Source of the DNA: a virus
DNA length: 22,526 nucleotides
IMG/VR virus record: IMGVR_UViG_3300005529_000104
Location: 1-22,526 of that record
Reading direction: 5' to 3' (one strand)
Positions 2,019-5,301 of the stretch are shown one piece after another. The translations under genes were made by a program, and so were the position numbers. The notes below the pieces were generated by a model. That model had not been told where the DNA came from, did no database searches, and saw only the letters and a program-made list of their open reading frames with translations. Each line of letters starts with the position of its first letter. Position 1 is the stretch's first letter.

Positions 2019-2820
2019 CCTGATCGAAGACTTCCATTTAGCGATTGACCCGGCCCACTTCTCGCGCAAGGTGGGACTTCCGCCCGATGATTGGCAAGCG
2101 CGACTCCTGCAATCCAACGCGAAGAAAATTCTGCTCAATTGTAGCCGGCAATCTGGCAAGACCACGACCATCGGCACACTGGAGGCCCATGCGGCCATCT
2201 ATCATGACGGTATCCAGATTATCAATGTTGCGCCCGGACTGCGTCAGAGCCGGGAACTCTTCCGCAAGGTCATGACGGCCTATCGGATCGCTGGGAAGCC
2301 TATCCGCGCCCGCGTGGAGAACAAGCTGGAGTTGGAGTTGGTCAACGATTCGCGAGTTGTGGCATTGCCCGGGAGCGAGGGCACCATTCGCGGGTTCTCG
2401 GGGATTGACTGGCTCATCTTCGAGGAGGCATCTCGTATCCCCGATGCCCTGTATCATTCCGTGCGACCAATGATCGCCACCCGTCCCGATGCGCGCATCA
2501 TCATTCCCTCGACGCCTTTTGGCTCACGCGGCTTCTTCTATGAACAATGGCTGGAAATCGTCGGAAAGAAACTCAACAAGGCATTCGGGGATATCATCGG
2601 GAAGACCTCGATGGACGATTGGGAGTATTTTGAGGTGCGAGCTGAAGACTGTCCACGCATTTCCCAGGAGTTTTTAGAGGAAGAGCAGGCAAGCATGGGA
2701 GACTGGTGGTATCAGCAGGAGTACGGTTGCAAGTTTCAGGATGCGCAAGGGGCTGCGTTTCGCTCAGAGGATATCGCACGCATCGTGAGCCAGGGGGTGA
2801 GCTCGTGGCAATTCTCGTAG
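2002..2820 (+). CDS. terL: Terminase large subunit, ATPase half
   Basis: This is the motor that drives DNA into the procapsid using ATP. The 272-residue frame contains a Walker A at 47-55 (CSRQSGKTT), a Walker B-like stretch at 137-142 (WLIFEE) and a coupling motif at 167-174 (IIPSTPFG). It ends soon after the usual ATPase-domain end (WWYQQEYGCKF at 236-245). The normal acidic D-E pair of Walker B is E-E here. The nuclease domain expected on the same chain lies in the next frame (-1), starting within the last bases of this gene. The final residues, SSWQFS, look like frame run-on. The gene is either a true split, a frameshifted fusion or a sequence error at G5 (2793-2797). It overlaps the end of the small-subunit gene by 17 bases. 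Confidence 0.9.
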   Translation: MNKAPSLIEDFHLAIDPAHFSRKVGLPPDDWQARLLQSNAKKILLNCSRQSGKTTTIGTLEAHAAIYHDGIQIINVAPGLRQSRELFRKVMTAYRIAGKPIRARVENKLELELVNDSRVVALPGSEGTIRGFSGIDWLIFEEASRIPDALYHSVRPMIATRPDARIIIPSTPFGSRGFFYEQWLEIVGKKLNKAFGDIIGKTSMDDWEYFEVRAEDCPRISQEFLEEEQASMGDWWYQQEYGCKFQDAQGAAFRSEDIARIVSQGVSSWQFS

Positions 2821-3563
2821 AGCAACTCAACCCGGTCTCCGTGGGGATCGACGTAGGACAGGTGACGGACCCCACGGCACTCTGCATCACCGAGTGCATC
2901 CGGCGCGACACGGGCAGAATTCGCTATGCTAGAGAGCAGGAGATGGCGCGATACAGCCCGAAAGGTGAATGGATTCCTTCGAAAGGGGCTGATCCTGTAT
3001 TTGTTACCGACTATACCGTGCGTCACATTGAACGTTTGTCACTCGGGATGAGTTATCCCGATCAAGCTGCCTACCTTGCCGATGTTCTCTGCAATCCGTT
3101 GCTCAGGCAACGTCGTGTTACCGTGCGCATTGATGTGACCGGTGTGGGAAGACCGGTCTATGAGAGTTTGCTCGGAGAGTTCAATATTCGCAAGTACGGT
3201 CGGTACCGGCCGAACGGCACCTTTCAGCCGCCACGAGAGATGTGTGAGGCGTACTTCCTTCCCATCACATTTGTGCATGGCGAGACCTATAACCGGCGTA
3301 CGGGATCGCTCGGGAAGTCGTTCCTGGTGAGCAAACTGCAATCTCTCCTGCAATCAGGGCGTGTTCACGCTCCCGACACGCCAGAGGTCCGTGCAACACT
3401 CGATGAGATGCGGGTGTATGAGCGAAGGATGAGCCAGGACGGCGTGGATCAGTACGGCGCATTCAAAAAAGGCACACATGATGATCTCGCGACCGCGCTC
3501 GGGCTCTCGTGCCTGGAGGACCCGTTTTTAGAGAAAGCGCGCACCGGCGCGCGCGTGTATTGA
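2805..3563 (+). CDS. terL: Terminase large subunit, nuclease half (RNase H-like)
   Basis: This 252-residue product cuts concatemeric phage DNA at the start and end of packaging. Acidic residues typical of the RNase H-like terminase nuclease are visible: Asp 16 in VGIDVGQVTDPTA, Asp 110 in VRIDVTGVG and Asp 226/227 in GTHDDLATAL. GTG 2805 is the likely start if the gene is separate, with GGGGGTGA 4 bases upstream acting as ribosome binding site. The frame is open back to 2706, so a -1 shift from the ATPase frame at the G5 run would make a single chain of about 520 residues, a normal length for the family. The start is uncertain; the domain assignment is strong. Confidence 0.85.
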   Translation: MAILVEQLNPVSVGIDVGQVTDPTALCITECIRRDTGRIRYAREQEMARYSPKGEWIPSKGADPVFVTDYTVRHIERLSLGMSYPDQAAYLADVLCNPLLRQRRVTVRIDVTGVGRPVYESLLGEFNIRKYGRYRPNGTFQPPREMCEAYFLPITFVHGETYNRRTGSLGKSFLVSKLQSLLQSGRVHAPDTPEVRATLDEMRVYERRMSQDGVDQYGAFKKGTHDDLATALGLSCLEDPFLEKARTGARVY

Positions 3564-3825: not shown

Positions 3826-5301
3826 ATGATGCAGACGCCCACGCAGACGCCCACGGACGCACCGCCACAGCCTCGCTACACCGTCACCGACAAGGACAAA
3901 GCGAGGCAGGAGCAGATACGCCTTGCCTGGAAAGCGTACAATGGCGAGTTTGATAAGCCACTCGAAAAGATGCCCGATCAGCCTGATGATAATGTGATCG
4001 AAAATCAGTGCGCAGGTGTCGTCGATGGTGGGTCCAACTTCCTCTTCGGGCTCGAACTCGAAATCACCGTCGAGGAAGACGCGCCGCTAGGTGCGCAAGA
4101 CTTTCTGAACACAACCTGGGGACGCAAAGAGCGGCGTATCCCGCTGCTCCAGGACCTCGCCATAAATGGCGCGATTGCGGGGACGGCGTTCTTACGCATC
4201 GTGCCGGCGAAACGAGGGAAGCAATTCCGGCTCATCACGGTTGACCCTGCGATCGTGAGCGTGCAAACAGCGCCGCAGGATTGTGAGACGGTGCTGCTCT
4301 ATCACCTGGAGTACTGCGAGAAGCAGGAAATCAATGGCAACGAGCAAAACGTCTACTACTGCGAAGAAATGGCCCTCAACGATCCCGATGACGACGAGGC
4401 CGATCATGGTGATAATGAGATGGCGGATATCGATGCATCCTGGACCATCGGGCACTGGACGCGCGTGGGCGACCGGGGCGCATGGACGCCGGCCGGGGAC
4501 CCGATTGTGTGGCCGCATCCGTTTGCACCGCTCTTTTCCTGCAAGAACTTGCCACGTCCGAACAGCTTCTGGGGCAAGCCGGACATCACGCCGGATATTG
4601 TCGGGCTCAACAATGCGCTCAACCTCAACGAGAGCGACATTAACCGCCTGGGCAAGATTAACGGCGGCCCGATTATCACCGCTGTTGGCGTTGGTGACTC
4701 GCGAATTGACCACAAACCAGGGCAAATCACGGTGCTACCAACATTGGAAAGCAAGTTGGAGGCATTGCACATTGCCGGTGACATCACCAGCATGCGGGCG
4801 TTCAGCGAGGACCTGCGCAGTAGCATCGATGAGATAGCCGCGTTCCCAGGCGTCGCGACCGGGCGGCTCACTGCACAACCGCGTGGAGATATGAGCGGCG
4901 TAGCCATCGAACTCTTGTTCATGCCAGCACTCAAAAAAACGCAGGGGAAGCAGTGCCGGTATGGCGAATTGATTCTCGATGTGAGCCAGGCGCTGCTCAT
5001 CCTTAACGGCATGAGCGGCGATATCGATATCACGCTTAACTGGTCTAATCCGCTCCCGCATGACGATCTGCCAGCAGTGCAGGGCGCGGTCGCGAAGATG
5101 GGCATCGGCATCAGTAAGGCGACGCTGATGCGCGAGTTGGGCTATGACCCGGACGAGGAGGCCGACTTGAACGCAGCAGAGGACCAGAGAACCGTGACCA
5201 TGTTCAGTCGCGGGCAAGGCATGCCGCCTCCACCTCCACACCCAGCACCACCGGGACAGGAACAGCAACCGACACAGCAGCAGGGGGGTGAACAGCAGTG
5301 A
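3826..5301 (+). CDS. Portal protein (SPP1 gp6-like family)
   Basis: The portal forms the dodecameric ring at one head vertex through which DNA enters and leaves, and it docks the terminase. The 491-residue length fits the family. The N-terminal part has the typical early segments (VIENQCAGVVDGGSNFLFG, then ITVEEDA). A central wing region follows (LLQDLAINGAIAGTAFLRI), then the long-helix region near 265-345 (NNALNLNESDINRLGKINGG and RSSIDEIAAFPGVATGRL). The C-terminal tail from about 465 is Pro/Gln-rich and probably disordered. A strong AAGGAGG precedes ATG 3826; ATG 3829 is equally possible. The order terminase, portal, gpF-like protein supports the call. Confidence 0.88.
   Translation: MMQTPTQTPTDAPPQPRYTVTDKDKARQEQIRLAWKAYNGEFDKPLEKMPDQPDDNVIENQCAGVVDGGSNFLFGLELEITVEEDAPLGAQDFLNTTWGRKERRIPLLQDLAINGAIAGTAFLRIVPAKRGKQFRLITVDPAIVSVQTAPQDCETVLLYHLEYCEKQEINGNEQNVYYCEEMALNDPDDDEADHGDNEMADIDASWTIGHWTRVGDRGAWTPAGDPIVWPHPFAPLFSCKNLPRPNSFWGKPDITPDIVGLNNALNLNESDINRLGKINGGPIITAVGVGDSRIDHKPGQITVLPTLESKLEALHIAGDITSMRAFSEDLRSSIDEIAAFPGVATGRLTAQPRGDMSGVAIELLFMPALKKTQGKQCRYGELILDVSQALLILNGMSGDIDITLNWSNPLPHDDLPAVQGAVAKMGIGISKATLMRELGYDPDEEADLNAAEDQRTVTMFSRGQGMPPPPPHPAPPGQEQQPTQQQGGEQQ

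Follow-up and report, generated by a model that had tools for sequence, protein, structure and literature searches.

The stretch of DNA analysed here (the window) is the 22,526-base IMG/VR virus record IMGVR_UViG_3300005529_000104, positions 1 to 22,526, in which a head-tail gene block can be recognized by Pfam and PHROGs matches to portal, Mu F-like, major capsid and tape measure proteins. Its large terminase subunit, the motor protein of DNA packaging, is encoded in two reading frames on the plus strand. The ATPase gene extends from ATG 2002 to the TAG stop at 2818-2820 (2002-2820, 272 residues). The nuclease frame is computed to be in the -1 relation to it, is open from stop to stop from 2646 onwards, has GTG 2706 as its first start codon and ends with the stop at 3561-3563. 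Read from GTG 2805, it forms an RNase H-like nuclease gene of 252 residues (2805-3563) that shares 16 bases (2805-2820) with the ATPase gene, and a GGGGG run is located at 2793-2797. These frames and the G run had been placed correctly in the original prediction, which favoured a fused product, obtained by a -1 slip at the G run or by a miscalled G, and named a separate start at GTG 2805 as the alternative. Only the alternative has stood: the comparisons described below indicate that this is almost certainly a two-gene large terminase with overlapping ends, in which the G run is part of a Shine-Dalgarno sequence.

The ATPase ORF (open reading frame) matches Pfam Terminase_6N (E 3e-9). Its best family in PHROGs is phrog_7579, a family of 239 positions named terminase large subunit (E 4.8e-50), and it also matches phrog_9, more weakly. 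A profile made from ATPase relatives matches T4 gp17 and 4zni, the latter being the best sequence match (E 1.1e-20). The alignment of the ATPases contains 21 invariant columns, with the window among the rows that define them. The motif SRQSGKTT (2143-2166), which we take to be Walker A-like, has R49, Q50, G52 and K53 invariant in 49 aligned rows including the window. The stretch at 2419-2430, presumably Walker B-like, reads FEEA; Asp 141, which is nearly invariant in relatives, is replaced here by Glu.

The nuclease ORF matches Pfam Terminase_6C (E 3.6e-5), and the two Pfam matches confirm the earlier assignment of the halves as ATPase and nuclease; NCBIfam gave nothing useful for either. The best PHROG of the nuclease is a family of 233 positions listed with unknown function, and judging from their lengths, this family and the 239-position family on the ATPase side each cover one half of the protein. 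All 53 aligned nucleases are matched by phrog_27743, and we suggest that this PHROG, of listed unknown function, represents the nuclease half of split terminases. A profile of the nuclease matches the terminase nuclease structures 5m1q/5m1f (E about 7e-15). In agreement with this profile search, an AlphaFold model of the nuclease read from GTG 2805 (mean predicted local distance difference test score, pLDDT, 88.9; first strand at residues 11-16) has 5m1f, the terminase nuclease of phage G20c, as its best match in the PDB (E 2.4e-7; TM-score 0.49 by query and 0.65 by target). The product starting at GTG 2805 is predicted from this model to be a complete terminase nuclease. Ten columns are invariant in the nuclease alignment, the window again being among the defining rows; Asp 16 (2850-2852), Asp 110 (3132-3134) and Asp 227 are invariant in 53 rows including the window, and Asp 226, adjacent to the last of these (3480-3485 for the pair), is nearly so. 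Each of the two ORFs is separate and contains the whole of its domain.

Scans of viral contigs with the window proteins as single sequences gave no confirmed relative. Alignment queries with the ATPase provided 80 viral loci (the best 80 of 100) and 80 genome loci (the best 80 of 115), and an alignment query with the nuclease provided 64 viral loci, two of which were already in the set. Hidden Markov model (HMM) searches over the stop-to-stop frames of 235 sequences were used for classification, and resulted in 146 non-duplicate and 24 duplicate split loci, 15 non-duplicate loci and one duplicate with both halves in the same ORF, 42 loci with a long ATPase ORF and no nuclease hit, four that are cut and three without ATPase. 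The 42 long ORFs are probably fused, since Terminase_6C was found in ten of the 14 that were scanned with Pfam (Terminase_6N in all 14). The 146 split loci consist of the window, 84 viral, 55 genome-contig and six plasmid loci; the figures for this set are to be read as counts rather than frequencies, because the queries were mostly split and the sample leans to split forms. The nuclease frame is in the -1 relation to the ATPase frame in 103 of them, in the +1 relation in 24, and in the same frame behind a stop (0 relation) in 19. In 30 of the 146 the nuclease frame is not open until the ATPase stop has been passed, and 13 have more than 250 bases between that stop and the beginning of the nuclease domain. 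L012 and L103 were scored as split and L140 as fused although their ATPases are frame-broken, and the frames of L182 and L185 are broken too. The breaks in L140 (L140:2248-3717), L103 and L012 lie upstream of the junction, distribute the ATPase over two reading frames and represent errors or decay.

The last residues of the ATPase had been regarded as run-on in the original prediction, a view that is refuted by their conservation. Within the ATPase tree the window belongs to a clade of 23 rows, all split, with support 99; the junction could be compared in 22 of these, as the ATPase frame of L103 is broken upstream. The conserved C-terminus, AFRSEDIARIVSQGVSSWQFS in the window (2755-2817), contains an FR motif, used as anchor, and a tryptophan (W) at an identical distance from it in 22/22 rows. 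At most three residues follow the W in 19 of the 22 (exceptions L018, L101 and L106), and the tails of close relatives are alike (IARIVSQGVSSWQFS in the window, IERIVKPGVEQWLLN in L013, IERIVDPGVEQWAL in L017 and IEQIVKPGLEVWDI in L110). In contrast, in 17/22 rows the -1 frame is closed by a stop that lies after the FR motif and before the W, and in 11/22 by one at or after the codon of the G run; without L096, L099 and L113, in which the nuclease does not overlap in the -1 frame, these counts are 15/19 and 10/19. Since the W is present in every row while the -1 frame is stopped in most, the residues 3' of the G run are maintained in the ATPase frame.

The G run itself is contained in the sequence GGGGGTGA (2793-2800), the putative Shine-Dalgarno sequence of the nuclease gene. 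Its duplex with the anti-Shine-Dalgarno sequence has an energy of -10.7 kcal/mol before GTG 2805, a value that only 1.0% of 1582 positions across the gene pair attain, and GTG 2805 is the best of the four in-frame candidates (GTG 2706, -7.3; TTG 2727, -6.9; GTG 2841, -2.4 kcal/mol). The start codon (2805-2807) overlaps the conserved W codon as GTGG, and the -1 relation arises because the GTG sits one base before this TGG codon. Of the 22 other rows of the clade, ten have an in-frame nuclease ATG that overlaps the W codon, at the place where the window has GTG; other close rows have an ATGA overlap at the ATPase stop or a start further downstream. Judged from the sequence only, the nuclease gene is equipped with a start and a ribosome-binding site of its own, which substantiates the alternative that the original prediction had named. 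The window contains two copies of GGGGGTGA, where 0.54 would be expected; as two or more copies were found in 10 of 100 shuffled sequences, this is no excess. The second copy, at 5284-5291 (within 5283-5300), lies at a run of six G and precedes GTG 5298, which overlaps the stop of the portal gene by four bases.

Programmed -1 frameshifting, in which a fused terminase would result from ribosomes slipping on the GGG of the G run, has several features of the window on its side: the -1 relation, the G5 run and the open overlap are all present, -1 is the commonest relation among the split loci, and fused relatives of normal length are known, such as the terminases of phages Riverbug (417 residues) and MMP17 (415 residues). 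However, no slippery heptamer of the X XXY YYZ type exists in the overlap of the window, as the original prediction had partly recognized, and one is found in only 3 of the 103 loci with the -1 relation, while 15 of these have a homopolymer run of one of the sizes counted. Scored by presence or absence, the G5 run occurs in only two of 27 close rows, the window and L013, and in L013 it is directly followed in the nuclease frame by a TGA and then an ATG. A split gene in relatives, which had been proposed as a check, is found throughout the 23-row clade. Neither the frame relation nor an open overlap is conserved: relatives have separate nuclease frames in all three relations and at varied distances, including genes that do not touch, and in the clade the -1 frame is mostly stopped before the W. 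Together with the conserved ATPase tail 3' of the G run, these data contradict a fused product made by slippage, and we consider frameshifting very unlikely.

Two of the clade members with non-overlapping genes, L099 (about 1559-1707) and L113 (about 2751-2979), have inserts of approximately 150 and 230 bases, respectively, between the ATPase and nuclease genes. A tRNA-like nature of these inserts was suspected by eye. ARAGORN, run on eight loci, detected no tRNA, and Rfam gave no match for the L099 insert and one weak match for that of L113 (E 0.46, 17.9 bits, compared to a gathering score of 42.5), so that the suspicion was dropped.

Family tree analysis with FastTree of 195 ATPases, 140 of which are split, requires five changes between split and single-gene forms, compared to a mean of 48.2 with shuffled labels, and the branches starred in the tree force at least two such changes. 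In a second tree, from which ten rows were omitted (L140, L103 and eight that were long-branched or flagged beside such), four changes remain, and the single-gene terminase L229 falls within a set of 20 (support 97) whose other members are all split. This terminase (L229:4662-6512) has about 80 residues between its ATPase and nuclease matches, which suggests that it is a later fusion of a split form. With a midpoint root and a poorly supported backbone, either order of split and fused forms may apply. The presence of single-gene relatives in the same tree could agree with a recent frameshift mutation, by which a once-fused terminase of the window would now be decaying. Against this, the window lies inside an all-split clade and its closest relatives are all split, and both of its halves share the invariant columns of the alignments (10 in the nuclease and 21 in the ATPase, defined with the window included). 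Decay is therefore considered exceedingly improbable.

Several observations do weigh against a two-gene terminase in the window. The conserved W is a clade feature, being found in the last eight residues of only 76 of the 146 split ATPases; the proposed nuclease start is GTG rather than ATG; the -1 relation is kept in 20 of the 23 clade rows; and in the window the -1 frame stays open through the G run, so that a fused product may occur at a low level. In addition, fusion at the G run would give an ordinary linker of about 20 residues, compared to about 17 in Riverbug (by eye). The last point also favours a miscalled or misassembled G run that would have split one gene in two; homopolymers are prone to sequencing error, the source record is an IMG/VR virus contig, and frame-broken ATPases do occur in the relatives L140, L103 and L012. 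On the other hand, the same split is found in many independent records, complete plasmid records included, and the ATPase C-terminus 3' of the G run is conserved. An error of this kind is hardly to be expected.

The comparisons establish, at the sequence level, two separate conserved frames with whole predicted domains, and a start with a strong putative Shine-Dalgarno sequence for the second. For the two-gene terminase we propose that the first gene (2002-2820) would yield a complete packaging ATPase and the second (GTG 2805-3563) a complete RNase H-like nuclease. With the ribosome-binding site GGGGGTGA located in the terminal part of the ATPase gene and the GTG placed over the W codon, one mRNA would serve for both proteins, the nuclease probably being translated by termination-reinitiation coupling. 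Both proteins would presumably assemble on the portal and act as one motor. Coupling, assembly and function are inferred.

A large terminase encoded in two genes is already known as a kind, since two publications describe it for most Arthrobacter phages of cluster AY (PMC11920828, PMC12820723). In BillyTP of this cluster, alongside which BlueShadow is named, two coding sequences (CDS) overlap by 17 bases, a layout like that of the window, but with a +1 instead of a -1 relation. The best families of the cluster AY proteins also differ from those of the window, being phrog_19179 and phrog_21277, with Pfam TerL_nuclease for the nuclease, whereas the weaker match to phrog_9 is common to both ATPases. 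The HMMs of the window lineage gave E 0.057 (ATPase) and E 0.0083 (nuclease) with the AY pair; the latter value is nominally under the HMMER inclusion limit, in a search that covered two proteins. Close sequence homology to the cluster AY family was not found for either half, although distant common descent may connect its terminase with the window lineage. No paper on the split Terminase_6 lineage was found in a literature search of limited reach. The window lineage is a separate and widespread instance of the two-gene kind.

Counterparts were also found by protein searches in plasmid records. In five of these, Salinibacter pSR31, pSR11 and pSR14, Streptomyces virginiae and Rhodobacteraceae SC52, the split is present as two consecutive CDS that overlap by 4, 8, 4, 4 and 4 bases, respectively, in the +1 relation in pSR11 and the -1 relation in the other four. 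The three Salinibacter ruber plasmids carry homologous ATPases (40-43% identity to the window) and nucleases (30-34%, annotated as hypothetical), split in the same place as in the window. Single-gene terminases were found in Rhodococcus pDJL3 and in phages Riverbug, MMP17 and HGTV-1. The ATPases of Thermus phage Riverbug and Meiothermus phage MMP17 are 41.2% and 39.1% identical to that of the window, and their nuclease is detected by the window-lineage HMM, but each terminase is one gene, unlike that of the window. Three nuclease queries against 50,697 phage records gave no match at E 1e-5, which does not show that isolates are without this nuclease, because the Riverbug nuclease, found by the HMM, was missed by the same search; at E 1 the sole match of the window nuclease in these records was a Campylobacter phage record pair (0.07). 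The structures 5m1f and 4zni, deposited as short chains of 186-191 and 274 residues, respectively, both presumably derive from single-gene terminases.

The titles of the split genome contigs cover several phyla, including Acidobacteria (L155), Chloroflexia (L183), Planctomycetota (L186), Lysobacter (L161), Arthrobacter (L206) and Rhodothermia (L233); hosts are not certain, as many of these contigs are metagenome bins. As a tentative reading, rather less likely than not, these loci might represent an old lineage of Terminase_6-type motors that spans several phyla and occurs in uncultured phages, prophages and plasmids of phage-like type, and in which ATPase and nuclease are separate and meet only in the assembled motor; L229, and perhaps some further single-gene forms, would have arisen in it by later fusion. 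If so, the ratio and timing of ATPase and nuclease could be set apart. A motor from which the nuclease could be removed with the ATPase untouched is useful for asking how cutting and pumping couple. Apart from the breadth of its lineage, the terminase of the window is ordinary. A false frameshift candidate is removed by the present analysis, and since the split is native in this family, annotations should name the two ORFs as its ATPase and nuclease subunits.

Finally, an unusual ATPase was observed in L080 (L080:1648-4824), where a single ORF of about 1059 residues has its matches to the ATPase profile of 237 positions scattered from residue 50 to residue 1045. From this spread of matches, the terminase ATPase seems to be interrupted by a large in-frame insert, possibly an intein.
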